Origin: Desulfobacterales bacterium HSG2
Lineage (GTDB): Bacteria; Desulfobacterota; Desulfobacteria; Desulfobacterales; 4be13
DNA: 38,081 nt
Assembly: GCA_030378035.1 (NCBI GenBank)
Contig: JAUCGI010000037.1
Span: 1-38,081 of the forward strand
Reading direction: 5' to 3'
Positions 1-19,807 of this stretch are shown in pieces (positions within the stretch are counted from its first letter, which is position 1; every line of letters starts with the position of its first letter). The position numbers were made by a program, and so were the translations under genes. The notes beneath the pieces are model-generated. The model saw only the letters and a program-made list of their open reading frames with translations, had not been told where the DNA came from and made no database searches.

Positions 1-153
1 GAACATACCTTTATATATAGAGTGGTCCCCATGAAGGATGAACATACCTTTATATATAGAGTAGTCCCCATGAAGGATGAACATACCTTTATATATAGAG
101 TAGTCCCCATGAAGGATGAACATATACCTTTATAGAGTTGTCTCCGTGAAGGA
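1..153. repeat. 39-bp tandem repeat, 4 units
   Basis: Three nearly identical 39-bp units begin at 1, 40 and 79, and a degenerate fourth runs from 118 to about 153. Each contains CCTTTATATATAGAG followed by a GTCCCCATGAAGGATG-like segment. The array may extend left of the window. It lies directly upstream of the gene at 181, whose Shine-Dalgarno-like AAGGATGAAGG resembles the repeat end, so the array may have grown out of that leader. Confidence 0.85.
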
Positions 154-180
154 TGAATTGTGAAAGATAAAGGATGAAGG

Positions 181-504
181 ATGAAAAAACTGAGTGAATT
201 GCAATCGTCTGATTTTTCCCCGTTTCTGAACCAGACTTTCCAAGTCCATGCGGGATTGACCGAGCCTGTCGCAGCCGAACTGATCAAAGTCGCGGACCGC
301 GGATGGGGAATGCACGACCCGGAAACCGCAAAGCGGAGGCCATTTGAAATCATGTTCCGGTTTCCGGCCGGGATCCATGTGCCGCAGAAGATCTATCCCA
401 TTGAACATGAAAATATGGGAACACTTAACATATTTATTGTGCCGGTGGGGCCGGAACCTACAGACCCGGAACACCGTATTCTCTATCAGGGAATATTTAG
501 TTGA
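181..504 (+). CDS. DUF6916-like domain protein
   Basis: A 107-residue soluble protein with no signal peptide or membrane segment. The pattern of an N-terminal LxxxDFxxxLNxTF segment, a central RRPFEIMFRFP strand and a C-terminal LNIFIVPVGPEP...YQGIFS block matches my recollection of the DUF6916 family, small proteins often found near phage-tail-collar or secreted-structure genes. Length is normal for that family. The start at 181 is supported by AAGGATGAAGG immediately upstream. No partner gene of that type is visible here, so its role is unknown. The family assignment is by eye. Confidence 0.65.
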   Translation: MKKLSELQSSDFSPFLNQTFQVHAGLTEPVAAELIKVADRGWGMHDPETAKRRPFEIMFRFPAGIHVPQKIYPIEHENMGTLNIFIVPVGPEPTDPEHRILYQGIFS

Positions 505-636
505 AGGGATTCAGGCTCCCTTCAGCTTGAACTTAAACTTGAAGTTATACCTGACCACGTTCAAGGCAGAAAGGAGGTGATAGCCGATTCAAAAGGAAGT
601 CACAAAAAGAAACCCAGGTTTTTATGTCTGATTGTA

Positions 637-953
637 GAACGATTTTCCAAATCGTTCACAGAACAGTAAAACGATTTTCCAAATCGTTCACAGTAAAACG
701 ATTTTCCAAATCGTTCACAGTAAAACGATTTTCCAAATCGTTCACAGAACAGCAAAACGATTTTCCAAATCGTTCAAAGAACAGCAAAACGATTTTCCAA
801 ATCGTTCACAGTAAAACGATTTTCCAAATCGTTCAAAGAACAGCAAAACGATTTTCCAAATCGTTCACAGTAAAACGATTTTCCAAATCGTTCACAGAAC
901 AGCAAAACGATTTTCCAAATCGTTCACAAACAGCAAAACGATTTTCCAAATCG
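637..953. repeat. 11-copy hairpin array (AACGATTT-TCC-AAATCGTT)
   Basis: Eleven copies of a perfect inverted repeat, AACGATTT/AAATCGTT around a TCC loop, are separated by 7-13 bp linkers such as CACAGTAA or CACAGAACAGCAA. The last copy lacks the right arm end. The spacers are not unique sequences, so this is not CRISPR. An open frame across it (624-1031) is a by-product of the repeat. The array could form consecutive hairpins in RNA or cruciforms in DNA; no function is assigned. Confidence 0.9.
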
Positions 954-1095
954 GCATTCTTCATTTGTCGGTTTACACTTTCGGGTGTCAGGGTGAATTT
1001 TTTTTGCCTTTGTGCCCTTTGTGAGACATAAAATGCTGGCTGGCTCTGATTGGAAAAAAGTGTAAGCTACTTCCGGCTTTTATGAAGGATGCCCG

Positions 1096-1316
1096 AATAT
1101 TTGCACTTTTTCAACAGAAACACTTGGAATGCCCCCGGATTTGCCAATCCGAAGCGAGTGTGAGCTGAAACGAATGTGGCCGAGACCACAAAAAAAATGC
1201 AAATATTTGCAGATACAAATATTTGCACTTTCCTGTAACATGCGGGCTTGCGATTAGAGCGAATCTAAAGAAAAAGTCATCATATCGCCGGGTGTCTGAC
1301 GTGCAAATTTTTGCAC
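1096..1316. promoter_or_regulatory. cluster of TGCAAATATTTGCA-like palindromes
   Basis: Within about 220 bp there are four related sites: AATATTTGCAC at about 1097, the perfect 14-bp palindrome TGCAAATATTTGCA at 1198-1211, ACAAATATTTGCAC at about 1215, and GTGCAAATTTTTGCAC at 1301-1316. Spaced near-identical palindromes look like operator sites for a dimeric repressor. There is no obvious regulator gene beside them, so this is a suggestion only. Otherwise 954-1614 holds no convincing gene. Confidence 0.3.
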
Positions 1317-1614
1317 ATTTCCCGTCCGAAAGACTTTTTCGGCACATTCGCTTTGATGTTGAAACTGACGGCTGGCATCAAAAAAAATGTGATGGATGGG
1401 CAAGGAAGAATATTTCATTATTTCACGCAGTTGATTCACAACACAAAAGCCGGACTGAGCAGACAGGAACAATTTTAAAAAAATTTACGAAAAATCAGCG
1501 GTCAGGCACGGACATTGCATACCTTAATAGGCAGTCTGACCCGCATGAAATTTGCGTGGGTTTGCAGGCATTTGGTTTTAACTTATGCAAGGAACATATA
1601 AAAAGGAACATAAA

Positions 1615-1756
1615 AATGAACCGGAAAGAAAAGGAAACCAGAAAGTCCTCGGGAGAACTGTACCGGCTGAGAACAGGGGTCAGGGCCATGGGGAGATTTG
1701 ACAAAATGTTCAAAAAGGCCAAGGCTCAGATAGTGAAAGGCCAAAATCCGGGTTGA
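1615..1756 (+). CDS. small basic hypothetical protein
   Basis: A possible 46-residue, lysine- and arginine-rich protein with the stretch YRLRTGVRAMGRFDKMFKK. It starts at an ATG preceded by AAAAGGAACATAAAA, which gives a weak ribosome binding site. The frame is open further upstream (from 1223), but that part looks like non-coding sequence. No family is recognised. It may be a remnant or not a gene at all. Confidence 0.22.
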
Positions 1757-1914
1757 GGGTTTTAAAAAAATTATCCCACATATGGGGACTCAGATAAGAA
1801 AACGTGACTTACTGAGATTTCCTGATTTAGCCCGGTTGCAGTGTTAATCCGGCATACTATGTTTAGTCGTATGCTCAATAAGATACATTTTTTCATCTTA
1901 GTCCCCATATTTTT

Positions 1915-2940
1915 ATCAAAACAAAACCATGTCATTCCCGCGTCATCGAGCAGCTTCAACTGGTTGACTTCAAGAACTTCAAACGAGCTCAACTGGTTGA
2001 CCTGGAAAGCGGGAATTCACTCTTTCCCATCTGAAATATCCGTTTTGCCTCAACACCTCCCCTACCGGATCAAATGTGTCAGGAGCGGAACTCATGACGC
2101 ATGTATCCACAGGGATTGGCGACAAGAAAAGGTTTTCGGCCTAAGACTGGCAACCTGTCCCGCATGGCAGGTTCATGCCTGAATTATCAGGCGATCCCCG
2201 ACATTTCCAGTCTAAGACTGGCAACCTGTTTTCAAATAACAAAACCATGTCATTCCCGCGTCATCGAGCAGCTTCAACTGGTTGACTTCAAGAACTTCAA
2301 ACGAGCTCAACTGGTTGACTTGGAAAGCGGGAATCCACTTTTTTTCATCTGAAATATCGAAATATCCGTTCAAAAGCATGTCATTCCCGCGTCATCGAAC
2401 AGGCAACCTGTCCGCACGGCAAGTTCGGGCCCGAATTATCAGGCGTCCCGGGTTCTTGAAAAACAGTTTCCCATAGACACCCGGCAGGTAACCAGTCTAA
2501 GACTGGCAACCTGAAATATTAGCTTTCAAAACAATTCATATGTCGGCATGTTAAAAATATGCCCGCGGTTTTCTTTCAGAGCTTATCGCTAATCCCTGTA
2601 AATACACGCCTGGAATGAAGTCTTCCGAACAAAACTACAGTTGCATATGTCCTGCTCCTGACGTATTTAATCCGGTAAGGGAGGTATTGAGGTAAAACGG
2701 ATATTTCAGATGAAAAGAGTGGATTCCCGCTTTCCAAGTCAACCAGTCGAGCTCATTCGGAGTTTTCGAAGTCAACCTGTCGAGCCTGCTCGATGACGCG
2801 GGAATGACATGGTTTTGTTATTTGAAAACAAGATGAAAAAGAGTGGATTCCCGCTTTCCAAGTCAACCAGTCGAGCTCATTCGGAGTTTTTGAAGTCAAC
2901 CTGTCGAGCCTGCTCGGTGACGCGGGAATGACATGGTTTT
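1915..2940. repeat. composite of long inverted repeats
   Basis: A left arm of about 190 bp (around 1915-2105) reappears as an imperfect reverse complement around 2640-2822. Partial copies lie at about 2240-2355 (direct) and 2830-2940 (inverted). The arms share CATTCCCGCGTCATCGAGC, CAACTGGTTGACTT and CTCAATACCTCCC-like blocks. Short palindromes reading CCAGTCTAAGACTGG, followed by CAACCTG, are interspersed (about 2145, 2210 and 2490) and recur at 19150 and 19260. No open frame of substance lies between the arms. This is a repeat island, possibly a degenerate non-autonomous element. Confidence 0.7.
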
Positions 2941-2984
2941 AGATAAAAATATTTTCTTAGTAGAAAAGGATTTCAGGGGCCGGA

Positions 2985-3178
2985 CTTCCAAAGTTTTGAA
3001 AACTTCGGAAGAGGACAGCCCTGTATCGTGCGGGAAAAATCTTTACCATGAAAATACATTTTCATCACCGGGGTGAAAAGTCCTTTTCATGGAAGTTTAT
3101 GTGGAATCCCTGGAATCCCTGTAGTTTTGTTCAGAAGTTTTCAAATATCAGTTGCAAAAAACACAGGTACCTGATAAA
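2985..3178. repeat. leader repeat shared with the DGR target genes
   Basis: This roughly 190-bp block, from ACTTCCAAAGTTTTGAAAAC to ACACAGGTACCTGATA, recurs with minor changes at about 19331-19520, upstream of the target gene at 19808. Its last 50 bp recur at about 14410-14460, upstream of the target at 14550. Here it precedes a broken FGE remnant. The block therefore travels with the leader region of this gene family. Confidence 0.75.
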
Positions 3179-3445
3179 TAAGCTGAATCAGAAGGAAGAC
3201 ACCGGCAAATGCAGGTTGCCGACCAAGGCGGAATGGGGATACGCCTGCGGGAACGGATACGCCGTTTTCGTTCGGAATGTGTCTGTCAGCGGATCAGGAC
3301 AATTATGATGGCAGGTATCCGCTGGAAGGCCGTTCCAATGGGAACTATCAGGAAAAAACGGTTCCGGTCGCAAGGTTTCTCTGCCAATTCATGGGGCTGT
3401 ATGATATGCATGGAAATGTTTGGGAGTGCGGAGTTTCCTTGGATA
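3179..3445 (+). pseudogene. FGE-sulfatase domain remnant, broken DGR target
   Basis: Two frames carry fragments matching the intact FGE domains elsewhere in the window: KLNQKEDTGKCRLPTKAEWG in one frame, then CLSADQDNYDGRYPL and GLYDMHGNVWE in another. DNA similarity is closest to the target at 14550 (its region from about 16085 to 16330). The remnant has a frameshift near 3270 and stops before the point where a variable repeat would begin, so no VR is present. There is no signal peptide or start. It shows that another target copy once lay here, next to the chimeric gene at 3668 that carries a DGR accessory head. Confidence 0.8.
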
Positions 3446-3573
3446 AACAAGCCTGCATACCGAGACTATAATTTTAGGCATAACTACAAGGAACTGGTGT
3501 GGCAAGGATGGGCGGAGCTGTCCCTTTTATCCTTACCAAACCCGATCCCTGTAGTTACCATCTACTACCACAA

Positions 3574-3627
3574 CTTGCAAATTCGTCCCCCACTCTTATA
3601 ATGGAAAAGGGGGTGACGAATTTACAA
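3574..3627. repeat. long imperfect hairpin upstream of the glycosyltransferase gene
   Basis: TTGCAAATTCGTCCCCC pairs with GGGGGTGACGAATTTACAA around a loop of about 18 bp containing TATAATGG. It lies 40 bp upstream of the ATG at 3668. It could be a leader structure or cruciform. TATAAT within the loop is compatible with a promoter -10 box, but no good -35 box was identified. Confidence 0.5.
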
Positions 3628-3667
3628 AGTTGCTGTACTACATGGATTACGAGTATAGAGGGAATAC

Positions 3668-6148
3668 ATGTTCAAAATCATCACAATGCCTTTTAACCGA
3701 AACATAGAAAACTTCGATGAAGACCTGCTGAACCACTTCTCCGTGGACAAGTACATCAGAAGCCAAGCCGAATTCTTTGCAGGAGGAACAGCCGATATCT
3801 GGCGCTGCTATCACAGAGTCCGGAACGCGATATGGACCAAAGCCATGGCCAGAGTGGATTTTGACACGTTTAGCATTGAAGAAAATCTCAGACACCTATA
3901 CCGCATCCCGTTTCTGACTCTATCCTATGTGATTCAGGTATTGATCTGGCCGCCTGCGAGAGCTGAAAGTCAGAAGCCGGAACTCAAAGATCGGATGGCG
4001 GAACCCGAAGATCGGGAAGCCGAAGATCGGAAGCCGGAAATCAAAGATCGGATGGCGGAAGCTGAAGATCGGAAGCCGGAACTCAAAGATCGGATGGCGG
4101 AAGCTGAAGATCGGAAGCCGGAACTCAAAGATCGGATGGCGGAAGCTGAAGATCGGAAGCCGGAACCCGAAGATCGGAAGCCGGAACCCGAAGATCGGAA
4201 GCCGGAACCCGAAGATCGGAAGCCGGAACCCGAAGATCGGAAACCGGAACCCGAAGATCGGAAACCGGAACCCGAAGATCGGAAGTTGGAACTCAAGACT
4301 GAACCTGAAGATCGGAAGCCGGAAATCAAAGATCAGAAGTCGGAAATCAAAGATCGGAAGCCGGAACATCGGAAGCCGGAACTCGAAGATCGGATGGCGA
4401 GACTCGAAGATCGGATGGCGAGACTCGAAGATCAGATGGCGGAACTCAAGCCGGAACCCGAAGATCGGAAGCCGGAACTCGAAGATTGGAAGCTGGAACT
4501 CGAAACTCGAAAGCCGGAAGCCAAAACTCGATACCCGGAAGCCGCTGACCGCCCGTCTCTCGTCTCGGCCCGATTTTCAGTCCTTGTGCCCACATACAAC
4601 AGCCATCTCGGTTATTTTAGGGAACTGACTGATTCCCTCAAGGCCCAGACATACGATCACTTTGAGGTGTGCGTGAGTGATGACGCATCAACCGATGCGA
4701 TGCTTGAAGATTATCTGAAAGATCTTGCCGAGAACGATTCCCGTTTCCGAGTAATGTTCTGGGAGAAAAACGGCGGCATCGCGGAGAATACCAACCGGGC
4801 CATGAACATGGCAAGGGGCGATTTTCTGGTACTGTGTGACCATGATGATCGCATGGACCCCTTTGCCCTTGAAGCCTTTGCTGAGTATGTCAGTGATCAT
4901 CCTGAGAGCGATGTGATTTACACTGATGAGGACATGATTGATACCCGAGGTTTTCGCCACAGCCCCCGGTTCCAGACCGACTGGAACCCGGATCTCCTGA
5001 CAAGCCATATGTACTGTCCCCATCTCATCGCTGTAAGAACCAGTCTGGCAAAGGATGCGGGGCTTATGGAACCCTTGCTGGACGGGGCTCAGGACTATGA
5101 TTTCTTTCTGAGAGTCACGGAAAAGGCGCGTCACGTCGGCCATATCCCTCTGATTCTCTATTCATGGCGCAGCGCGCCCGGGTCCATTGCCATGGATTGC
5201 GCGGAAAAGATGTACGCGTATGAAGCCGGCAGAATAGCCCTTGAAAATGCCATGGAAAGACGAGGAGAGGATGCCGTGGTGGTAAAGGTTCCGGGAACGA
5301 ATCTGGGGGTCTACCGGGTAAAGCGGAAGGTTTCGGAATGCGATGTGTCTCATATTGTGGAAGGCCGTACCAAAGATGTGATTACCGCTGTGAGGAGCAT
5401 AAGACTGGTTTCGCCAGTTCCCGTGGAGATACTGGTGGTTACTGAAGATGATCGGGATGAGGTTTCGGAGGTTTTGGAAAAGGAGCGGGATGTGAAGCTG
5501 ATCATCGGGCCCAAAGGTTCCGGCAGGGCAGGGCTTTATAATCAGGGGGCCGGTGCCGCTCAATCCCGATTCTTATTTTTTTCCGGGCACAATGTGGAGA
5601 TTCTGGACAGCGAATATCCTCTGGCCGCACTGGAACATACCCGGAGGCCCGAGATCGGCGCGGTGGGAGTGAAACTGAGTTATCCTAACGGCCGGTTTTA
5701 TCATACCGGCATGATTATGGGCGTGAACGGGCTTTGCGGTTATGCCCATCGGAATACGCCCCATGGTCCCGGTTATTTCAACTATGCCGCGTGTATAAGG
5801 AATTATACCGCGGTGTCATGGGATCTGATGGCTGTGGATAAGCGGAAATGGGAGGAGGCAGGCGGTTTCGATGAGACCCTGCCCTTTTACGGAGATATTG
5901 ATTTTTGTCTGAAGCTGATACGCGAAGGGTACCGAAACCTTTACACGCCTTATATTTCAGGGGTGTTAAAAAGCAGGGTTCACGGGTTGGAGGAACTCCG
6001 CAACAAAGAGGCCGCTCATATCCTGATAGGCCGATACGGAAGCGAGATATTGGAGGATCCCTTTTACCATCCGCTACTTTCAAAGCTGGTTGAGGACTTT
6101 TCAGTAGCTCGAAACTCGGAAGCCGACCTTGAGAGTCCTGCGGAATAA
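3668..6148 (+). CDS. chimeric protein: DGR-accessory head, heptad linker, double-domain family 2 glycosyltransferase
   Basis: An 826-residue protein with three parts. Residues 1-40 (MFKIITMPFNRN...HFSVDK...AEFF) are nearly the same as the start of the HRDC accessory protein at 11375, also at DNA level. Residues 41-97 are not recognised. Residues about 98-296 are a heptad repeat, mainly EDRKPEP or DRMAEAE and ending in LEDRMARLEDQMAEL, probably an extended helix or coiled coil. From about residue 302 comes a GT-A glycosyltransferase: VLVPTYNS, VSDDASTD, NGGIAENTN, the CDHDD metal-binding region near 390 and VIYTDED near 415. A second GT2-like half ends with GGFDETLPFYGDIDFCLKL. This resembles O-antigen or surface-glycan transferases with two GT2 modules. 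The start follows AGAGGGA. The head probably came from recombination with a DGR cassette. Confidence 0.85.
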   Translation: MFKIITMPFNRNIENFDEDLLNHFSVDKYIRSQAEFFAGGTADIWRCYHRVRNAIWTKAMARVDFDTFSIEENLRHLYRIPFLTLSYVIQVLIWPPARAESQKPELKDRMAEPEDREAEDRKPEIKDRMAEAEDRKPELKDRMAEAEDRKPELKDRMAEAEDRKPEPEDRKPEPEDRKPEPEDRKPEPEDRKPEPEDRKPEPEDRKLELKTEPEDRKPEIKDQKSEIKDRKPEHRKPELEDRMARLEDRMARLEDQMAELKPEPEDRKPELEDWKLELETRKPEAKTRYPEAADRPSLVSARFSVLVPTYNSHLGYFRELTDSLKAQTYDHFEVCVSDDASTDAMLEDYLKDLAENDSRFRVMFWEKNGGIAENTNRAMNMARGDFLVLCDHDDRMDPFALEAFAEYVSDHPESDVIYTDEDMIDTRGFRHSPRFQTDWNPDLLTSHMYCPHLIAVRTSLAKDAGLMEPLLDGAQDYDFFLRVTEKARHVGHIPLILYSWRSAPGSIAMDCAEKMYAYEAGRIALENAMERRGEDAVVVKVPGTNLGVYRVKRKVSECDVSHIVEGRTKDVITAVRSIRLVSPVPVEILVVTEDDRDEVSEVLEKERDVKLIIGPKGSGRAGLYNQGAGAAQSRFLFFSGHNVEILDSEYPLAALEHTRRPEIGAVGVKLSYPNGRFYHTGMIMGVNGLCGYAHRNTPHGPGYFNYAACIRNYTAVSWDLMAVDKRKWEEAGGFDETLPFYGDIDFCLKLIREGYRNLYTPYISGVLKSRVHGLEELRNKEAAHILIGRYGSEILEDPFYHPLLSKLVEDFSVARNSEADLESPAE

Positions 6149-6240: not shown

Positions 6241-8362
6241 ATGAAAAAAGTAGCTATGTGTATGGTCGTTCTGTTCTGTTTTTCTTTTCTGGCCGCGGCG
6301 CTGGCATGGAACGACGGCCGGGGGATCAAAAGGATCAAGAAAATCGCCGATCTGAGCCATGACAGCGGGAAGCTGGGAAGGTATCACGCCCTGGTCATCG
6401 GAATCGACAAATATCAGGATGACCTGATCCGAAATTTGAAGACGGCCCGGAACGATGCCGTGGCAGTGGCCGGGTTGCTCAGGGAGCGTTACGGGTTCCG
6501 AACGGAGCTCCTGCTGGACGGGCAGGCCACGAAGGAGGCTGTTTTCAATGCCCTGCGCCGGCTGGCCGCCGAGTCGGAGGAGCATGACAGTCTGCTGATT
6601 TATTATGCCGGGCACGGGGAGCCTGACCCGGTTTACAATGATGGTTGGTGGATTCCGACGGACGCGGAGGCGGGGAAACCCCTGACCTATCTGCGCAACA
6701 CCGAGGTGCAGATGGCCATGAAGAGCATGAACGCCCGGCATGTCCTGCTGATCTCCGACTCCTGCTATTCGGGAACGCTTTTCGGGCAGACCCGTGGAAT
6801 GCCGACAGTGATTGGTGAGCGGTATTACCTGAGTCTGCACAATAAGAAGAGCAGGTGGGGCATGACCTCGGGGAGCATGGAGCCCGTGTCGGATCTCGGA
6901 AGCGGGGGGCACAGCATCTTTGCCTACCAGTTGCTCAGTGCGTTGGAGGAGAATGAAAAGGCATACATCAGCACCCAGGAGATATTCACCCAGATCGCAC
7001 CGGTTGTCGGAAACAACTCGACGCAGACTCCGGAATGCCGGCCGATTCTGCACACCGGTGATCTGGGCGGACAGTTTGTGTTTGTAAGGTCAAAGGGTAT
7101 CAGGGTGGCAACAGGCGGGGCAACCGTGACCCGGCCCTCGGCAAAAGGCACTCTGGATGTGGAATGCAGCGTGTCCGGTGCGAGGGTGCTGGTGGACGGC
7201 GGATATGTTGGAACGACGGATCTGTCAGGTGTGGCGGTCACGCCGGGCGAGCACAGGATACTTGTCGAAAAGGAGGGGTATGAGACCTATCAGCGTCGGA
7301 TAAGCATCGAGGCGGGAAGGAGCATGTCCCTGTTTGTGGAACTGACGCCTGTGAAGAAAAAGATGAGGCTCTATGTGGACACACATCCCGCAGATGCGGG
7401 CATACGGATTCTGAACATCCGGCCCCGTTTTCGTCAGGGGATCGAACTGGACCCGGGTGAGTACCATCTGGAAATATCGGCTGACGGATATGAAACGGAA
7501 AAAAGATGGATCACGACGGAGGCGGGAAGGGACAGAAGTCTGAGCATTCGTCTGAACGCGGTTATTGTTGCCAGCAGGCCGGCTGAAAGCGGTTTTGCCA
7601 ACAGCATCGGCATGAAGTTTGTTCACATATCGGCGGGGACGTTTATGATGGGAAGTCCTTCGGATGAGCCCGAAAGGGACGATGATGAAAGGCTGCACCG
7701 GGTGACGCTGACCAAGGGTTTTTACATGCAGACCACCGAGGTGACCCAGGGACAGTGGAAGGCGGTTATGGGAAGCAATCCGTCCCGTTTTAAAAACTGC
7801 GGGAATAACTGTCCGGTTGAGAAGGTCTCCTGGGATGATGTGCAGGAGTTCATAAAGAAGCTGAACCGGAAGGAAGGTACGGGCAAATACAGACTACCGA
7901 CCGAAGCCGAATGGGAATACGCTTGTCGTGCTGGTACGAAAACGGCTTTATACACAGGCAATATAAGGATACTTGGTGATAATAACGCGCCGGCACTTGA
8001 CAGCATGGTACGGGGGAAACAGTTGTGTAAGTTACTCAGGCGGCCATGACTGTTCGAGTTGGGATGAAAAGCAATATTCCTGTCCAAAGTGCGGCACAAA
8101 CCCGGTTGCTCAGAAGAAGCCGAACGCGTGGGGACTGTATGACACCATTGGTAATGTATATGAATGGTGTCAGGACACTTTCGGTACCGATATATATGCC
8201 AGAGATCAAACCGATCCTATATATATAGTCGGCTCTGATCGGGTGATTCGGGGCGGCCGTTGGTTCGACGACGCCCGTCACTGCCGCTCGGCCTACCGGT
8301 ACAGCGACAGCCCGGACAACAGGAGCAGCCACGTCGGGTTCCGTCTCGCCAGGACCCCTTAA
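6241..8362 (+). pseudogene. DGR target 1: exported caspase-PEGA-FGE protein, frameshifted before its VR
   Basis: About 95% identical by eye to the intact gene at 8705. The start at 6241 is preceded by AAGGAGGAGACTC and gives a signal peptide (MKKVAMCMVVLFCFSFLAAALA). In order follow a caspase-like (peptidase C14) domain with YYAGHGE and SDSCYSG catalytic motifs, two PEGA domains and an FGE-sulfatase domain. At 8002-8006 only one AGCAT is present where the paralogue has two (10472-10481). This 5-bp loss shifts the frame and stops the protein at 8049. The remaining FGE part, with the variable repeat, is open in another frame (7973-8362). As written the product lacks its variable region. Slippage between AGCAT copies could reverse this, so phase switching is possible; a sequencing error is the alternative. 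Confidence 0.85.
8226..8352 (+). other. DGR variable repeat VR1
   Basis: Aligns gap-free over 127 bp with the TR at 13290-13416. By hand count there are 15 differences, 13 at TR adenines. TR codons SWNNNARNC become RWFDDARHC. The 3' constant block GTCGGGTTCCGTCTCGCCAG is unchanged. In the present sequence it is out of frame with the caspase start because of the upstream frameshift. Confidence 0.95.
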
Positions 8363-8400
8363 CTTTTGGATTTTTACTTTTTTACCTTCTGGAAGGCGAT

Positions 8401-8431
8401 ATCTGCGGTTCAGTTTAATACTTCCGCAGAT
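8401..8431. promoter_or_regulatory. conserved hairpin downstream of VR1
   Basis: ATCTGCGG and CCGCAGAT form a perfect 8-bp stem with a 15-nt loop, 48 bp past the end of VR1. The same stem follows VR2 and VR3 at similar distance and is missing after VR4 and the TR. Known DGRs often have a hairpin just after the VR that aids retrohoming, usually nearer and with a short loop. No T-tract follows, so it is not a classical terminator. Confidence 0.55.
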
Positions 8432-8452
8432 TCGTAATTCAGGGGTAAAAAG

Positions 8453-8690
8453 GCGAATCCAAAGGGATGCAGTTTTTTTTGGACAAACGAAGCATGGAAT
8501 CCTGCATACCGATACTATAATTTTAGGCATAACCACAAGGATTGTGGATAAAAAACTTCCATGAAAAGGACTTTTCACCCCCGGTGATGAAAATCTATTT
8601 TCATGGTAAAGGATTGCTCTCAGCCGAGGACCCGTAATCCTTTCTTACCCACAATCCGTGTAGATGGACGCACAATCCGTGCAGATAATC
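8453..8690. repeat. repeat-rich spacer between targets 1 and 2
   Basis: No gene is visible. It holds a CATACCGATACTATAATTTT stretch also found at about 3457-3495, a block ending CCGGTGATGAAAATC related in inverted orientation to about 19580-19630, and the AATCCTTTCTTACCCACAAT leader repeat at 8630-8687 with a doubled CACAATCCGTG. These repeats could have mediated the target duplication. Confidence 0.6.
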
Positions 8691-8704
8691 AAAGGAGGAG
8701 ACTC

Positions 8705-10837
8705 ATGAAAAAAGTAGCTATGTGTATGGCCGTTCTGTTCTGTTTTTCTTTTCTGGCCGCGGCGCTGGCATGGAACGGCGGCCGGGGGATCAAAAGGATC
8801 AAGAAAATCGCCGATCTGAGCCATGACAGCGGGAAGCTGGGAAGGTATCACGCCCTGGTCATCGGAGTCAACAAATATCAGGATGACCTGATCCGAAATT
8901 TGAAGACGGCCCGGAACGATGCCGTGGCGGTGGCCGGATTGCTCAGGGAGCGTTACGGGTTCCGAACGGAGCTCCTGCTGGACGGGCAGGCCACGAAGGA
9001 GGCTGTTTTCAATGCCCTGCGCCGGCTGGCCGCCGAGTCAGAGGAGCATGACAGTCTGCTGATTTATTATGCCGGCCACGGGGAGCCTGACCCGGTTTAC
9101 AATGATGGCTGGTGGATTCCGACGGACGCGAAGGCGGGGAAACCCCTGACCTATCTGCGTAACACCGAAGTGCAGATGGCCATGAAGAGTATGAACGCCC
9201 GGCATGTCCTGCTGATCTCCGACTCCTGCTATTCGGGAACGCTTTTCGGGCAGACCCGTGGAATGCCGACAGTGATTGGTGAGCGGTATTACCTGAGTCT
9301 GCACAATAAGAAGAGCAGGTGGGGCATGACCTCGGGGAGCATGGAGCCCGTGTCGGATCTCGGAAGCGAGGGGCACAGCATCTTTGCCTACCAGTTGCTC
9401 AGTGCGTTGGAGGAGAATGAAAAGGCATACATCAGCACCCTGGAAATATTCACCCAGATCGCACCGGTTGTCGGAAACAACTCGACGCAGAGTCCGGAAT
9501 GCCGGCCGATTCTGCACACCGGTGATCTGGGCGGGCAGTTTGTGTTTGTAAAGTCAAAGGGAATTGAGGTGGCAACAGGTGGTGCAACCGTGACCCGGCC
9601 CTCGGCAAAAGGGACTCTGGATGTGGAATGCAATGTGTTCGGTGCGAGGGTGCTGGTGGACGGCGGATATGTTGGAAAGACGGATCTGTCAGATGTGACG
9701 GTCACGCCGGGCGAGCACGGGATACTTGTCGAAAAGGAGGGATATGAGACCTATCAGCGCCGGATAAGCATTGAGGCGGGAAGGAGCATGTCCCTGTTTG
9801 TGGATCTGACGCCTGTGAAAAGAAAGACGAGGCTCTATGTGGACACACATCCCGCAGATGCGAGCATACGGATTCTGAATATCCGGCCCCGATTTCATCA
9901 GGGGATCGAACTGGATCCGGGTGAGTACCATCTGGAAATATCGGCTGACGGATATGAAACGGAAAGAAGATGGATCACGACGGAGGCGGGAAGGGACAGA
10001 AGTCTGAGCATTCGTCTGAACGCGGTTATTGTTGCCAGCAGGCCGGCTGAAAGCGGGTTTACCAACAGCGTTGGCATGAAGTTTGTTCACATATCGCCGG
10101 GGACGTTTATGATGGGAAGTCCCTCGGATGAGCCGGGCCGATATGATGATGAAAGGTTGCACCGTGTGACACTGACCAAAGGTTTTTACATGCAGACCAC
10201 GGAAGTGACCCAGGGGCAGTGGAAGGCGGTTATGGGAAGCAATCCTCCGAAACTTCGTTTTAAGAACTGCGGTGACAACTGTCCGGTGGAGCGGGTCTCC
10301 TGGAATGATGTGCAGGAATTCATAAAGAAGCTGAATAGGAAGGAAGGCGCGGGCAAATACAGACTGCCGACCGAAGCTGAATGGGAATATGCCTGTCGTG
10401 CCGGTACGGAAACGGCTTTATACACAGGCAATATAAGGATACTTGGCAAACGTAATGCACCGGCACTTGACAGCATAGCATGGTACGGAGGAAACAGTTG
10501 TGTAAATTACTCAGATGGCTATGATTGTTCGAGCTGGGATGAAAAGCAGTATTCCTGTCCAAAATGCGGCACAAGCCCGGTTGCTCAGAAGAAACCGAAC
10601 GTGTGGGGACTGTATGACACTATTGGTAATGTATATGAATGGTGTCAGGACACTTTCGGTACCGATATATATGCCAGAGACCAAACCGATCCTATATATA
10701 CAGTCGGCTCTGATCGGGTGATTCGGGGCGGCGGTTGGTACGACTACGCCCGTTACTGCCGCTCGGCCTTCCGGGACAGCCTCAGCCCGGACTACAGGAG
10801 CAACTACGTCGGGTTCCGTCTCGCCAGGACCCCTTAA
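8705..10837 (+). CDS. DGR target 2: exported caspase-like protease with PEGA and hypervariable FGE/CLec domain
   Basis: A 710-residue protein that starts at 8705 after AAAGGAGGAGACTC; an in-frame ATG upstream at 8603 lacks this site. Residues 1-22 form a signal peptide ending ALA. Residues about 47-285 are a peptidase C14 caspase-like domain with His125 in YYAGHGE and Cys175 in SDSCYSG, both catalytic residues present. Two PEGA repeats follow (about 302-370 and 376-440), then an FGE-sulfatase domain from about 452 to the end with GMKFVHISPGTFMMGS, EVTQGQWKAVMG, RLPTEAEWEYACRAG and GFRLAR. Residues about 666-708 are encoded by VR2. Six cysteines cluster at 599-650, perhaps as disulfides. It is the intact member of a tandem pair and is likely exported. 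I infer that binding by the variable domain is coupled to the protease; substrate and ligand are unknown. Confidence 0.92.
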   Translation: MKKVAMCMAVLFCFSFLAAALAWNGGRGIKRIKKIADLSHDSGKLGRYHALVIGVNKYQDDLIRNLKTARNDAVAVAGLLRERYGFRTELLLDGQATKEAVFNALRRLAAESEEHDSLLIYYAGHGEPDPVYNDGWWIPTDAKAGKPLTYLRNTEVQMAMKSMNARHVLLISDSCYSGTLFGQTRGMPTVIGERYYLSLHNKKSRWGMTSGSMEPVSDLGSEGHSIFAYQLLSALEENEKAYISTLEIFTQIAPVVGNNSTQSPECRPILHTGDLGGQFVFVKSKGIEVATGGATVTRPSAKGTLDVECNVFGARVLVDGGYVGKTDLSDVTVTPGEHGILVEKEGYETYQRRISIEAGRSMSLFVDLTPVKRKTRLYVDTHPADASIRILNIRPRFHQGIELDPGEYHLEISADGYETERRWITTEAGRDRSLSIRLNAVIVASRPAESGFTNSVGMKFVHISPGTFMMGSPSDEPGRYDDERLHRVTLTKGFYMQTTEVTQGQWKAVMGSNPPKLRFKNCGDNCPVERVSWNDVQEFIKKLNRKEGAGKYRLPTEAEWEYACRAGTETALYTGNIRILGKRNAPALDSIAWYGGNSCVNYSDGYDCSSWDEKQYSCPKCGTSPVAQKKPNVWGLYDTIGNVYEWCQDTFGTDIYARDQTDPIYTVGSDRVIRGGGWYDYARYCRSAFRDSLSPDYRSNYVGFRLARTP
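10701..10827 (+). other. DGR variable repeat VR2
   Basis: Gap-free 127-bp match to the TR with 17 hand-counted differences, 14 at TR adenines. [11 protein letters not shown] becomes GWYDYARYC, and several AAC codons become TAC, GAC, TTC or CTC. It is in frame at the end of target 2, nine bases before the stop codon. Confidence 0.96.
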
Positions 10838-10876
10838 CTTTTGGATTTTTACTTTTTTTACCTTCTGGAAGGCGAT

Positions 10877-10907
10877 ATCTGCGGCTCAGTTTGAGACTTC
10901 CGCAGAT
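10877..10907. promoter_or_regulatory. conserved hairpin downstream of VR2
   Basis: The same 8-bp stem ATCTGCGG/CCGCAGAT with a 15-nt loop as after VR1, 49 bp past VR2. The whole flank of roughly 80-90 bp after the stop codon is conserved among VR1, VR2 and VR3. Confidence 0.55.
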
Positions 10908-11374
10908 TCGTCATTCAGGGTAAAAAAGGGGCAATCGGGGGAAGATCAGCATTTTTCCAAATAAAAGGGGCAGGAGTCCCGCACATCGGCCCATAATTTT
11001 TTTTATCATCAGAATCGACAAAAAATTTTAGGTCGCGGAGCTTTCTTCCTGAATTTTTATAATCTTTTGGATTATTATAACCAAAGAACTATATTGGACG
11101 ATCTTTGCGAGCAATTTTTTATAACTTCGAGCATAACTACAAGGATTTGGTTTAGTAAGGATGTGTATTAAACTCAATCCTATTAGTTACGAAAAATAAC
11201 TAACTGATAAAAAAACCTTTACAAAACACATCAACAAGTATATACAGCTTTTTGTCACACGGAAATCAGCATATAGTAAATAAACACAGCATATATACAT
11301 CTGCCATATTGTATATATGCATACACATTCACTATATACTATATTTTTTTCTTACCATTATACATAGGGAAAAT
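10908..11374. other. AT-rich spacer before the DGR operon
   Basis: About 470 bp without a convincing gene. It becomes strongly AT-rich from about 11000, with TATATACAGC-, TATATACATC- and TATACTATATT-like stretches just before the ATG at 11375. This is the natural place for the promoter of the accessory-Avd-RT-TR transcript, but no -35/-10 pair stands out enough to be called. Confidence 0.45.
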
Positions 11375-11947
11375 ATGTTCAAAATAGTAACAATCCCTTT
11401 TAACCGAAACATAGAAGGTTTTGATGAGGACCTGCTGAACCACTTCTCGGTAGATAAGCACATCAGAGGCTACCGAGCCGAATTCTTTGTAGACGGCGAA
11501 GAGAAATACTGGACCGTGTTTGTTGAATATGAACCGGTTCTTGAAGAAAAAACCTCCCGCCAGAAAAAAAGAAGTCAGGATCTCGGTCTTGATGAAACCC
11601 AGAAAGTCCTCTTTGAAAGACTCAGAAAATGGCGAAGGGAACGGTCCAAAAAAGACGGACTGTCGGTCTATATCCTGGGAACCAACAGCGAGCTGGCAGA
11701 AATTGTCAAATCAGCTCCCAGAAGCCTTGAAGCACTTTCAAATGTGAAAGGATTCGGCAAAAGCAAAGTTAAAAGCTACGGAAAGGACATTATCAGCATC
11801 GTCAAAGCATTCTATGCAGATAAAGGCCCGGAAACCCAACCGGAACCTGAAAAGGAACCAGCAACTGAAAATCATCCGAAACCGGATGAGGAACCAACAA
11901 CTGAAAATCATCCGAAACCGGATAAGAAATCGGAAACCAAGGAATGA
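11375..11947 (+). CDS. DGR accessory protein with HRDC domain
   Basis: A 190-residue protein. Residues 1-50 form a motif-like head (MFKIVTIPFNRN, LNHFSVDK, AEFF, YWTVFVEYEP) that is repeated in the chimeric gene at 3668. Residues about 74-148 match an HRDC fold, the nucleic-acid-binding helical domain of RecQ helicases and RNase D: LFERLRKWRRERSK..., VYILGTN, LAEI, LSNVKGFGKSKVKSYG. The tail (150-190) is proline- and acid-rich with a repeated ENHPKPD. HRDC proteins are known DGR accessory genes and may act on the cDNA or TR RNA. The start at 11375, after ATAGGGAAAAT, is preferred over the longer frame from 11252 because the head sequence begins there. It overlaps avd by 4 bp (ATGA), so the two are translationally coupled. 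Confidence 0.88.
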   Translation: MFKIVTIPFNRNIEGFDEDLLNHFSVDKHIRGYRAEFFVDGEEKYWTVFVEYEPVLEEKTSRQKKRSQDLGLDETQKVLFERLRKWRRERSKKDGLSVYILGTNSELAEIVKSAPRSLEALSNVKGFGKSKVKSYGKDIISIVKAFYADKGPETQPEPEKEPATENHPKPDEEPTTENHPKPDKKSETKE

Positions 11948-12276
11948 AAGAGAATTACCCCATCTTCGTCAAATGGCTTGAAGCAACCGACTGGATACTC
12001 GAAAGACTCGACAAATATCCCAAATCCGTCCGATCCACCATATCAAACCGGATCGCCGACATGACCCTTGACGTCATGGAACAGATCATCGAAGCCATAT
12101 ACACAAAAAACAGATCGCCCATATTGGACAGAATCAACCTGCACATAGAAAAGCTCAGAGTCATGTTCAGGATAAGCTTTAAAAGACGGTACATATCCAA
12201 AAAACAGTACGCATACATCAGCGAATCGCTCAATGAAACCGGAAGAATGGTGGGAGGCTGGAAAAAAAGACCATGA
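11944..12276 (+). CDS. avd: DGR accessory variability determinant
   Basis: A 110-residue, basic, all-helical protein matching the Avd four-helix bundle family: YPIFVKWLEATDWILERLDK, FPKSVR-like YPKSVRSTISNRIAD, IIEAIYTKNRSPILDRINL, EKLRVMFRIS and a C-terminal NETGRMVGGWKK. Avd forms a pentameric barrel that binds reverse transcriptase and TR RNA and is required for mutagenic cDNA synthesis in studied DGRs. Length is typical. It overlaps the HRDC gene at its start and the RT gene at its end by 4 bp each, giving a tightly coupled operon. Confidence 0.95.
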   Translation: MKENYPIFVKWLEATDWILERLDKYPKSVRSTISNRIADMTLDVMEQIIEAIYTKNRSPILDRINLHIEKLRVMFRISFKRRYISKKQYAYISESLNETGRMVGGWKKRP

Positions 12277-13292
12277 AACGCAAAGGCTACCTTTTTGAAG
12301 AAATCATCACCTTTGAAAACCTGTACGAAGCTTTCAGAAAAGCATACAGCGGATCAGGCAGAACCGGAGAGACATGCCGTTTCAATTTCAACCTGGAAAA
12401 CGAGCTGCTTCAGCTAAAAACGGAAATTGAAACCGAAAGATACAAACCTGCCAGATACAGATATTTCAAAATCTTCGACCCCAAAGAAAGGCAGATCAGC
12501 GTGGCCCCCTTTCGGGACCGTGTGGTGCATCACGCCCTCGTCCGGGTCATCGAGCCTGTTTTTGAACGAAGCTTCATCTTTGACTCCTATGCCACCCGCG
12601 TCGGAAAAGGCACACACCGGGCAGTGGAACGGGCACAGAAATTCCTCAGAAAAAATTTCTGGTATCTGAAAACAGACGTTGAGAAATATTTCGACAGCGT
12701 TGACCACGATATCCTGCTGAAACTGATCCGCAGAAAAATCAAAGATGAAAAAGTCATCAGACTCACAGAAAAAATCATTCGCAACAGCGACCGGAGCAGA
12801 GACCTCGCACACGGAAAAGGTCTGCCCGTGGGAAACCTGACCAGCCAGTTCTTCGCCAATGTTTACTTGGATCCGCTCGACCACTTCATAAAAGACCGCC
12901 TGGGCGTGAAATGCTACATCCGATACATGGATGACATGGTCATATCCTCGGATTCCAAAGATGACCTCAGAGACCTTCTCAAAATAAAGGAAACCTTTCT
13001 CGCGGAGAATTTGGAACTGAGGCTGAATCCGAAAGCGACCCGCCTGAACAACTGCCTTCACGGGCTTCCGTTCCTCGGATTCATGATATTCCCGAATCTG
13101 AAAAGAATCAGAAAAGAAAACCTGAAGCGGGTCAAAAAAAGACTGAGGCAGCGAAAAAACGAGTTTGAAGCCGGCATCATCACAGAGGAGCAGTTTGCGA
13201 TGAGCGTCCGGTCCGTGTTTGAGCATGTCAGGTTTGCCGACACCTACAGGCTCAGAAGATCATTTCTTGCAGACTGGGCAGGCGTCGAATAG
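12273..13292 (+). CDS. DGR reverse transcriptase
   Basis: A 339-residue reverse transcriptase of DGR type. Visible motifs are [17 protein letters not shown] (72-89), [14 protein letters not shown] (133-146) with the first catalytic Asp, [18 protein letters not shown] (183-200), which carries the SQ version of motif 4 seen in DGR enzymes, [10 protein letters not shown] (215-224) with the catalytic Asp pair, and LPFLGFMI near 270. There is no maturase or endonuclease domain, as expected. It copies the TR RNA into cDNA with errors opposite adenines. It starts by a 4-bp overlap with avd. Its TAG stop forms the first bases of the TR. The coding strand is A-rich compared with the GC-richer targets. 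Confidence 0.97.
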
Positions 13293-13416
13293 TCGGCTCT
13301 GATCGGGTGATTCGGGGTGGCAGTTGGAACAACAACGCCCGTAACTGCCGCTCGGCCAACCGGAACAGGAACAGCCCGGACAACAGAAACAACAACGTCG
13401 GGTTCCGTCTCGCCAG
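13290..13416 (+). other. DGR template repeat (TR)
   Basis: A 127-bp non-coding template matching all four VRs gap-free. It contains 32 adenines, many in AAC triplets at the variable positions. AAC gives NNC codons when both A positions vary, so no stop codons can arise. The invariant 3' block at 13397-13416 (GTCGGGTTCCGTCTCGCCAG) fits the initiation-of-mutagenic-homology segment; identity ends abruptly after it. The TR begins with the RT stop codon. Three TR bases or codons disagree with every VR: T13318, AGG at 13367-13369 and A13387. Confidence 0.97.
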
Positions 13417-13522
13417 CACACGGAATAAGTGAGATTCGGTTCGTTTACGGATGGCCCGAGAGTACCTTTCTGTGTCCAGACGCCTGCCCCGCTCCGGGAT
13501 TTCCCGGACGAATATTCCCATT

Positions 13523-14245: not shown

Positions 14246-14549
14246 ACTGAAAGGATAGAAGCATGAATGTCAGAATCCTTTTATCTCCGCCGCCTCGGTC
14301 AGTATCGTCACACAGGTCTCCTGATGACCTCCTGATGACCCGCAAGTACGGGATGACTTTTTTCTACCCGAAATATCCGTTCAAAACTACGTCATTCCCG
14401 CGTCATCGGAAGTTTTCAGTTTTCAAATATCAGTTGCAAAAAACACAGGAACCTGATAGAATGATTTTTGTTGTCCGGTTCGGATTGGCAAATCCGAGCT
14501 GGCAGGAGTATTTAATTTTTTTTACCACAATCATGAAAGGAGATAACTT
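14246..14549. repeat. repeat-rich leader of target 3
   Basis: No gene. It contains a CATTCCCGCGTCATCGGAAG stretch related to the repeats at 1.9-2.9 kb, and from about 14410 a block (TTTTCAAATATCAGTTGCAA onward) shared with 3130-3178 and 19480-19590. The target's ribosome binding site AAAGGAGATAACTT closes it. Confidence 0.6.
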
Positions 14550-16529
14550 ATGAAAAGAAGGCCGCTGTTTTTCATATCCGTTCTGACAGGAATTCTGCTG
14601 GTCTCGTCTCTGAGCTTTTCCGACAGGACCATAATACGAAACCAGGATGGGAAGAGCCGGCTGGCCCTTGTGATCGGAAATGCCGATTACAAGGGGGAGG
14701 CCCTGCTGAGAAATCCGGTCAATGACGCACGGGACATGACCCGCGCCCTGAGAAGCCTCGGTTTCGAGGTGATTCACAGGGAGAACGCCAAAATCAGGGA
14801 GATGAAGGACGCCTTGCGGGAATTCGGGAGGCGGCTGAGCAGAGGCGGAGGCACGGGCCTGTTTTATTTTGCGGGTCACGGGATTCAGGTGAGGGGGCGG
14901 AATTATCTGATTCCGATCGGAGCGGAGATCGATACCGAATCGGATGCGGAATTCGAGTCCGTGGATGCCGGCCGTGCGATGGGGAAGATGCAGGATGCGG
15001 GGAACGCGCTGAACATTGTCATTCTGGATGCGTGCCGGAACAATCCGTTCACCAGGGGGTTCAAAAGCAGAGGCCCGGGTTCCCGGGGTCTGGCAAAGAT
15101 GAACGCGCCGACCGGCTCGATCATCGCCTATGCCACCGCTCCGGGATCGCTGGCCAAGGACGGCACGGGCCGGAACGGTGTTTACACCAAGCATCTGATA
15201 AGGCACATGAGGACTCCGGGGCTGACCATCGAGCGGGTCCTGAAAAACACCCGCATTGATGTGGCCAGGGAGACCGGAAGGAAACAGATTCCTTGGGAGC
15301 ATTCGTCGCTGATGGGGGATTTTTATTTTGCCAGCAGCAGCTTCGGCCGGGATGAGCCGCAGCCCGTGCCTTCGGCAAAAGGTTCCCTGGATGTGGAATG
15401 CAGCGTGTCCGGTGCGAGGGTGCTGGTGGACGGCGGATATGTTGGAACGACGGATCTGTCAGGTGTGGCGGTCACGCCGGGTGAGCACGGGATACTTGTC
15501 GAAAAGGAGGGGTATGAGACCTATCAGCGTCGGATAAGCATCGAGGCGGGAAGGAGCATGTCCCTGTTTGTGGAACTGACGCCTGTGAAGAAAAAGATGA
15601 GGCTCTATGTGGACACATATCCGGCAGATGCGGGCATACGGATTCTGAACATTCAGCCCCGTTTTCATCAGGGGATCGAGCTGGAACCGGGTGAGTACCA
15701 TCTGGAAATATCGGCTGACGGATATGAGACAGAGAGGCGATGGATCACCGCTGGGGCGGGGGACAGAAATCTGAGTATCCGCCTGAACGCCGTTGTTGCT
15801 GCCCGGCCGGATGAAAGCGGGTTCACCAACAGCATCGGCATGAAGTTTGTTCACATATCGCCGGGGACGTTTATGATGGGAAGCCCATCGGATGAGCCTG
15901 AAAGGGACGATGATGAAAGGCTGCACCGAGTGACGCTGACCAAAGGTTTTTATATGCAAACTACGGAGGTGACTCAGGGGCAGTGGAAGGCGGTTATGGG
16001 GAACAATCCGTCCAATTTTAAGAACTGCGGGAACAACTGTCCGGTTGAGCAGGTCTCCTGGGATGATGTGCAGGAGTTCATAGAGAAGCTGAACCGGAAG
16101 GAAGGCGCGGGCAAATACAGCCTGCCGACCGAAGCTGAATGGGAATATGCCTGCCGTGCCGGAACGGACACGCCGTTTTCGTTCGGAAGGTGTCTGTCAA
16201 CAAATCAGGCCAATTATGACGGCAACTATCCGCTGAAAGGCTGTTCCAAAGGGAAATATCGGGAAAAAACGGTTCCGGTCGCAAGCTTTCCCGCCAATCC
16301 GTGGGGGCTGTACGATATGCATGGGAATGTCTGGGAATGGTGCCAGGATACTTTCGGTATATATGCCAGAGACCAAACCGATCCTATATATATAGTCGGC
16401 TCTGTTCGGGTGTTTCGGGGCGGCAGTTGGGTCTACGACGCCCGTGACTGCCGCTCGGCCAACCGGTACAGCTACAGCCCGGCCTACAGGCTCAACTACG
16501 TCGGGTTCCGTCTCGCCAGGACCCCTTAA
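14550..16529 (+). CDS. DGR target 3: exported caspase-like protease (different type) with PEGA and hypervariable FGE domain
   Basis: A 659-residue protein starting after AAAGGAGATAACTT. Residues 1-24 are a signal peptide (MKRRPLFFISVLTGILLVSS). The caspase-like domain (about 37-262) is of a different subgroup from targets 1 and 2: LALVIGNADYKGEALLRNPVND, His110 in YFAGHG, Cys162 in LDACRNNP, and GSIIAYATAPGS, the common metacaspase-like arrangement. Two PEGA repeats follow, almost identical to those of target 2. From about residue 425 comes the FGE-sulfatase domain, but its middle (CLSTNQANYDGNYPLKGCSK) belongs to the version seen in target 4 and in the 3.2-kb remnant. The C-terminus is encoded by VR3. 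The family thus exchanges catalytic and recognition modules around conserved PEGA linkers. Confidence 0.93.
   Translation: MKRRPLFFISVLTGILLVSSLSFSDRTIIRNQDGKSRLALVIGNADYKGEALLRNPVNDARDMTRALRSLGFEVIHRENAKIREMKDALREFGRRLSRGGGTGLFYFAGHGIQVRGRNYLIPIGAEIDTESDAEFESVDAGRAMGKMQDAGNALNIVILDACRNNPFTRGFKSRGPGSRGLAKMNAPTGSIIAYATAPGSLAKDGTGRNGVYTKHLIRHMRTPGLTIERVLKNTRIDVARETGRKQIPWEHSSLMGDFYFASSSFGRDEPQPVPSAKGSLDVECSVSGARVLVDGGYVGTTDLSGVAVTPGEHGILVEKEGYETYQRRISIEAGRSMSLFVELTPVKKKMRLYVDTYPADAGIRILNIQPRFHQGIELEPGEYHLEISADGYETERRWITAGAGDRNLSIRLNAVVAARPDESGFTNSIGMKFVHISPGTFMMGSPSDEPERDDDERLHRVTLTKGFYMQTTEVTQGQWKAVMGNNPSNFKNCGNNCPVEQVSWDDVQEFIEKLNRKEGAGKYSLPTEAEWEYACRAGTDTPFSFGRCLSTNQANYDGNYPLKGCSKGKYREKTVPVASFPANPWGLYDMHGNVWEWCQDTFGIYARDQTDPIYIVGSVRVFRGGSWVYDARDCRSANRYSYSPAYRLNYVGFRLARTP
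16393..16519 (+). other. DGR variable repeat VR3
   Basis: Gap-free 127-bp match to the TR with 17 hand-counted differences, 15 at TR adenines. [11 protein letters not shown] becomes SWVYDARDC. Two upstream adenines (in GATCGG and GTGATT) are also changed to T, so mutagenesis reaches towards the 5' end of the repeat. Confidence 0.96.
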
Positions 16530-19094: not shown

Positions 19095-19807
19095 GCTTTC
19101 CTCTCCTTTCGGTTTTTAAAACTTGTTTTGTTGGGCGTTTCCAGATTACCAGTCTAAGACTGGCAACCTGTTTTCAAATAACAATCTTTAACACTTGAAT
19201 TATCAGGTGTCAAGGGTATTTTTGAAAAAAATAGTTTCCCGCTAATACCCGACAGGTTACCAGTCTAAGATTGGCAGCCTGTCCTGTATGGACACTTTTG
19301 GAAAAACAATGGGACGCAGATAAACGCGCTTGAACTTCCAAAGTTTTGAAAACTTCGGAAGAGGCCTGTATCGTGCGGGAAAAATCCTTTACCGTGAAAA
19401 TACATCTTCATCACCGGGTGAAAAAGCTTTTTTCATGTAAATTTCTTATGTGGAATCCCTGTAGTTTTGTTCAGAAACTTTCAAATATCAGTTGCAAAAA
19501 ACACAGGTACCTGATAGAAGATTTTTTTGTCGTCTGGTTCAATTGGTAAATCTGAACTGGCGAGAGTATTTAAAACTTTTACCATGAAAATAGATTTTCA
19601 TCACTGGGCTGAAAATTTTTTTCCATGGAAATTTCAGCATCCTTCATAAAAGCCGAAAGTGGTTTACACTTTTTCCAACCGGCATTTCACATCTCACACA
19701 AAGGTCACAAAGGACAAAAAAAGAATTCACCTGACACCCGAAAGTGTAAAGCGACAAATGAAGGATGCCGAAATTTCTTACCCAAATTCATGATAAGGAG
19801 GTAGTTT
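19095..19807. repeat. repeat-filled spacer before target 4
   Basis: About 700 bp without a gene. It holds two CCAGTCTAAGACTGG-type palindromes (about 19150 and 19260, the second degenerate), the leader block shared with 2985-3178 (19331-19520), a block shared with the leader of target 3 (to about 19590), and a GAAAATAGATTTTCATCAC palindrome near 19587. It separates divergent genes, so promoters for both should lie here. Confidence 0.6.

Follow-up and report, generated by a model that had tools for sequence, protein, structure and literature searches.

Remnants of a Probable Second DGR Unit and Fusion of Its HRDC Start to a Glycosyltransferase Gene in a Desulfobacterales Genome

The window analyzed here (the whole 38,081-nucleotide stretch of contig JAUCGI010000037.1 from Desulfobacterales bacterium HSG2) carries a diversity-generating retroelement (DGR) together with its targets, and raises the question of what once stood near its left end, where a broken FGE (C-type lectin-like) sequence is followed by a gene that begins like the HRDC accessory gene of that DGR. 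An earlier note proposed that a duplicated cassette had been reduced to its edges, the remainder having been replaced by a glycosyltransferase gene. Based on sequence comparison, a second DGR unit (a target, then HRDC) quite probably arose here by duplication within the locus, and positions 2984–3790 represent its left edge in a decayed state. The relic pieces, the chimeric gene, targets 2–4, HRDC, Avd, RT, and TR lie on the forward strand; two high-copy repeats are given without a strand.

The Working DGR

The DGR of this contig includes an HRDC accessory gene (11375–11947), for which an AlphaFold model was available, Avd (11944–12276; bAvd E 5e-16, NF033474 E 7e-28), the reverse transcriptase (RT; 12273–13292), which contains the only RVT_1 match in the assembly, and the TR (13289–13419). 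Target 2 (caspase-PEGA-FGE; 8603–10837) is the intact counterpart upstream of HRDC, target 3 (14550–16529) is the closest relative of the FGE remnant, and target 4 (FGE; 19808–20941) has a 5′ flank that matches that of the relic. The VRs of targets 1–4 are located at 8225–8355, 10700–10830, 16392–16522, and 20561–20691, respectively.

At three non-adenine positions, the four VRs agree with one another and differ from the present TR (offset 29, T>C; offset 80, G>C; offset 128, C>G), and the difference at offset 80 sits between mutagenised adenines. The template of their last writing was evidently another TR or an earlier one; the TR of a related genome (G003) has C at the offset 29 site, and no second TR is present in the assembly. 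Relative to target 2, target 1 lacks 5 bp of an AGCAT repeat (7980–8049); the reading frame consequently stops at 8049, which leaves the VR out of frame. The VR of target 4 runs directly into a copy of the PEGA region (20689–20838, 88–90% identical to 9748–9896 and others), and the normal 3′ end and post-VR hairpin are consequently missing.

Collinear Remnants of a Target and an HRDC Gene

The FGE core remnant (3174–3428) matches target 3 (16080–16339) at 82.8% identity in unbroken order (blastn, E 2e-71), and the target 4 region (20240–20494) at 75.8% (E 2e-45). The N-terminal part and the VR of this target are deleted, and the remnant ends at codons for GNVWE, immediately before the variable repeat. 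Compared with target 3, it has three frame-breaking indels (−5, +1, and −1 bp), and therefore no reading frame spans it. A copy of target 2 was considered as the source and rejected for the FGE part, given that only 74 bp match target 2 vs. 255 bp for target 3; the closest relation of the relic target is with targets 3 and 4, not target 2.

The sequences on both sides of the core also have counterparts in the contig. The 5′ flank (2984–3176) is paralogous to the target 4 flank (19334–19516, 86%); the final 41 bp have a second counterpart in the target 3 flank (14418–14458, 98%). Nested within the relic's 5′ flank is a short high-copy repeat (3041–3098) with dozens of other copies, which occupies the same place in the target 4 flank and was therefore inserted before that duplication. 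Downstream, the spacer (3429–3510) is homologous both to the sequence after target 1 (3449–3492 with 8498–8541, 93%) and to the interval between target 2 and HRDC (3467–3510 with 11120–11163, 80%), each being a short match of 44 bp. The old HRDC leader contains a palindromic, MITE/REP-like high-copy repeat (3558–3645), also present in dozens of genome copies. To the left of the relic, 1906–2940 is composed of nested direct and inverted repeats of 110–180 bp that are 84–97% identical.

The HRDC head, comprising the first ∼41 codons of the accessory gene (3668–3790), has 83% DNA identity to the working copy (blastn, 3659–3782 vs. 11366–11492, 83.5%, E 8e-33), and the encoded protein is 66% identical to intact HRDC over residues 1–51 (E 1e-15). 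An AGGGA motif resembling a ribosome-binding site (3659–3663) precedes the ATG, as it does in the intact gene. Across the 5.6-Mb assembly, the head has no copies other than these two. Between the two copies, dN/dS is about 0.2–0.3 with one in-frame codon deletion, a value that pools both copies over 40 codons and says nothing on selection of the fused copy alone.

Taken as a whole, the 5′ flank, the FGE core, the spacer, and the start of HRDC are all four collinear with the working unit, with E values from 1e-4 to 2e-71. The FGE core and HRDC head are equally diverged from their working copies (∼17% each), and mismatches in both are biased to the third codon position (9/8/21 in the core and 5/5/11 in the head for first, second, and third positions), so that both must have been coding during most of the time since duplication, and decay came later. 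Outside the nested repeats, an assembly-wide search with the core and its flanks matched only other parts of the same contig. The locus has two features of a degenerate (relic) DGR: a target remnant homologous to a target of the same genome (83% to target 3), and a machinery remnant in the order of an intact unit, with the HRDC start after the spacer as in 10837–11492.

Several claims of the earlier note can be judged from these comparisons. The broken FGE remnant, placed at 3179–3445, is confirmed by blastn with a corrected extent, and the ∼120 bp said to match the start of the HRDC gene at 11375 do so to within a few bases. The order of target then accessory gene, likened to target 2 and HRDC, holds for flank, target, spacer, and HRDC alike. 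The proposal of a duplicated cassette with only edges remaining stands for the edges of a second target-HRDC unit, to which the conserved spacer can now be added; it goes further than the evidence regarding the RT and TR, whose presence in the lost unit is no more than likely, and regarding the missing older TR, which a second cassette might have held. No traces of RT, Avd, or TR were found at the relic: the sole RVT_1 match in the assembly (12483–13082) belongs to the other unit, and a search with the TR returned 13280–13425 and the VRs of targets 1–4, with none in 1–6000. Because only edges are left, duplication of no more than the target and the beginning of HRDC would look identical. The assembly is fragmented (5.6 Mb in 288 contigs) and 72.6% complete, and absences from it therefore carry little weight. 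Synteny differs in the nearest family members.

The Chimeric Glycosyltransferase Gene

The HRDC head is the beginning of an 826-codon open reading frame (3668–6148), in which it is joined to a shortened glycosyltransferase with a GT2 domain from about 4571 (Pfam PF00535, E 2e-33, 116 bits vs. a curated cut-off of 23.3). The nearest orthologue, from a member of the same family (G003:C231), is 1029 aa long and has two GT2 domains, one of them N-terminal. The chimera matches the second of these at 70%. Between the head and this domain, 3791–3985 encodes internal pieces of the two-domain protein (about residues 234–246 and 414–469 of the orthologue): chimera residues 44–52 are similar to the last part of the first domain, and residues 53–105 match the linker (414–469). 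An in-frame array of charged repeats (DRKPE/LKDRMAE; 3961–4544) lies between the junction and the GT2 domain, and is not in the orthologue. For the glycosyltransferase part compared with the orthologue, dN is 0.20 and dS is 1.74, which indicates purifying selection.

The first GT2 domain was sought in the chimera, in the upstream window, and in the whole assembly, and was not found. The junction connects HRDC codon ∼41, with the frame kept, to the interior of the glycosyltransferase gene; with the first domain gone, this points to a deletion and not to insertion of a whole gene. Insertion of the whole glycosyltransferase gene was rejected on the same ground, as the orthologue's first domain is absent from the chimera. 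Replacement of the cassette by a glycosyltransferase gene, as formerly suggested, thus does not describe this junction: the gene is a 5′-truncated, internally deleted two-domain gene, fused to HRDC codon ∼41.

In the AlphaFold model of the intact HRDC protein (mean pLDDT 91), the head is predicted to form a strand (residues 2–10), a helix (19–25), and two further strands (28–40 and 43–54), followed by the HRDC helices. A fold search gave significant matches to HRDC-domain structures only, and the head had no confident match. The third predicted strand (43–54) falls past the breakpoint and is absent from the fused copy, which retains residues 1–41 only, has no HRDC domain, and so is not a DGR HRDC accessory protein. 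Without the last strand of this predicted small domain, the fused head is unlikely to fold as it does in HRDC, and probably supplies just the translation start site; this is most likely its only function, with no DGR role left.

HRDC Heads and Fossils in Related Genomes

Of 389 genomes of the order scanned with a head profile, 28 gave a match (an initial HRDC scan of the genome contigs had returned no matches). Around these matches, an FGE target is followed by HRDC, in some cases Avd, then RT and TR. In addition, a full head-HRDC protein is encoded at 32 of 80 named RT loci (from Bacteroidota, Spirochaetes, Desulfobacterales, and others), nearly always directly upstream of the RT. The possibility that the head is a widespread domain on unrelated proteins with no DGR nearby, which the earlier note had named as the observation contrary to its reading, was rejected, as the matches in the 389 genomes are DGR HRDC genes or pieces beside FGE targets. 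Two matches fall outside this: one, in G182, is weak (E 0.005) and looks like chance, and the other is a short piece with no recognized neighbor (G041:C785).

Among the matches are about six further loci in which an FGE target is followed by HRDC or its head and the RT is missing (L058, L104, L107, L098, L111, and L056). The length of HRDC left in such RT-less loci is variable: 21 residues in G257:C239, 30 in G007:C50, 37 in G198:C314, and roughly 80 in both G043:C153 and G078:C47, the last of which also keeps its TR. In G003:C307, the whole HRDC and the TR are kept, with Avd and RT lost. Two cassettes in relatives (L056, 6639–7405, and L111, about 2060–2590) retain target, HRDC, and TR, and have Avd and RT deleted between HRDC and TR. 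Neither G007 nor G257 has a match to the window's RT anywhere in the genome. Since all of these relics were found via the head search, their number and share are no measure of any preference for retaining the head over the tail. With similar fossils present in related bacteria, the relic amounts to ordinary decay with an unusual fusion; no other fusion of the head to a glycosyltransferase was seen in the 389 genomes.

Two of these loci (L104 and L107) have strong inverted repeats with a common loop, CCGAAGGA, between the target stop and the HRDC head, with counterparts in the window at about 8400–8432 and 10876–10905. These resemble the post-VR hairpin/cruciform needed for homing in Bordetella phage BPP-1 (PMC3240598).

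Origin of the Relic

The history that we propose would begin with duplication of a target-HRDC unit within the locus, after which the target would have lost its N-terminal part and VR and become frameshifted, and a high-copy palindrome would have inserted in the old HRDC leader. A single deletion may then have begun at HRDC codon ∼41 and ended midway through the neighboring two-domain glycosyltransferase gene, taking with it the rest of the DGR unit and the first glycosyltransferase domain, and a further deletion may have joined the two inner glycosyltransferase parts. Translation of the chimeric frame would now use the ribosome-binding site and ATG inherited from HRDC. We lean toward a full second cassette as the source of the relic. 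A less probable course is that only the target and the HRDC start were duplicated, came to lie in the glycosyltransferase gene or next to it, and decayed there, with no second RT or TR at any time. Such a course would explain why nothing past HRDC codon 41 is preserved, and the targets of this contig do duplicate readily without an RT (targets 1 and 2, at 94%, as well as targets 3 and 4). However, had a fragment been inserted into the glycosyltransferase gene, the first domain of that gene should still stand upstream, but neither the window nor the assembly has it. Relatives' full cassettes, moreover, have lost RT and Avd while keeping HRDC and TR (G003 and G078:C47), which shows that loss by deletion does take place in this group.

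The fusion itself can be read in other ways. It is improbable that the head is not debris but a functional N-terminal domain that the glycosyltransferase acquired by domain shuffling under selection. The frame is kept over the junction, the head differs by a codon deletion that is in frame and has a third-position bias, and the glycosyltransferase is under purifying selection, all of which would favor a working domain; yet the bias could be older than the fusion, the third strand of the predicted domain is cut off by the breakpoint, and the fusion has no second example among the 389 genomes. An assembly artifact, in which two loci were misjoined at the HRDC head, is very improbable even for a contig from an incomplete assembly in 288 pieces: the HRDC heads differ by 17% and the FGE copies by 17%, leaving no identical repeat to misjoin, and the frame is open through the junction for 826 codons. 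The relic may also belong to a wider pattern. We tentatively suggest that loss of the DGR writer by deletions starting inside HRDC, with the adjoining written target kept, could be a recurrent way of freezing a target, of which the leftover HRDC head would be the fossil; the window would then represent a late stage, with the head having also been taken over as the beginning of another gene. The six or so RT-less loci listed above fit this suggestion.

Comparison With Known Degenerate DGRs and Implications

Degenerate DGR loci are already published, and the relic is a further case. In Thiohalocapsa PB-PSB1, loci termed degenerate have machinery that is missing or pseudogenised, as well as MITE-like repeats (PMC10907252). 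Similar to the relic, these are duplicated DGR loci within one genome, with MITE-like repeats in the decayed parts and FGE/C-type lectin targets; unlike them, the relic target has also lost its VR, and the start of its accessory gene is fused to another gene (HRDC is unmentioned in that study). In Treponema denticola, where HRDC is a known DGR accessory protein, some isolates have targets from which RT and TR are gone, interpreted by the authors as remnants (PMC4891356). The relic is alike in having a target with no RT or TR, and differs in its leftover, fused piece of HRDC, a feature not reported for those isolates in the accessible text. The cyanobacterial all3226 is a dispersed target paralogue with remnant TR-VR homology and no RT, for which the authors propose that the diversifying parts are lost once a good variant is fixed (PMC7517822). 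It is similar in lacking machinery, but the relic target is itself broken, so that no fixed variant was kept. Neither a recurrent fossil mark in the form of the HRDC head, nor the takeover of such a head as the beginning of another gene, appears in the accessible text of these three sources (PMC10907252, PMC4891356, and PMC7517822).

As a sequence marker, the HRDC head points to DGR cassettes that have been lost. Through it, the idea that machinery is discarded after fixation of a useful variant (PMC7517822) can be tested by counting whether the targets beside head fossils are intact and conserved or, as here, broken. The window documents one case in which the start codon of a dead cassette was captured by a neighboring gene.
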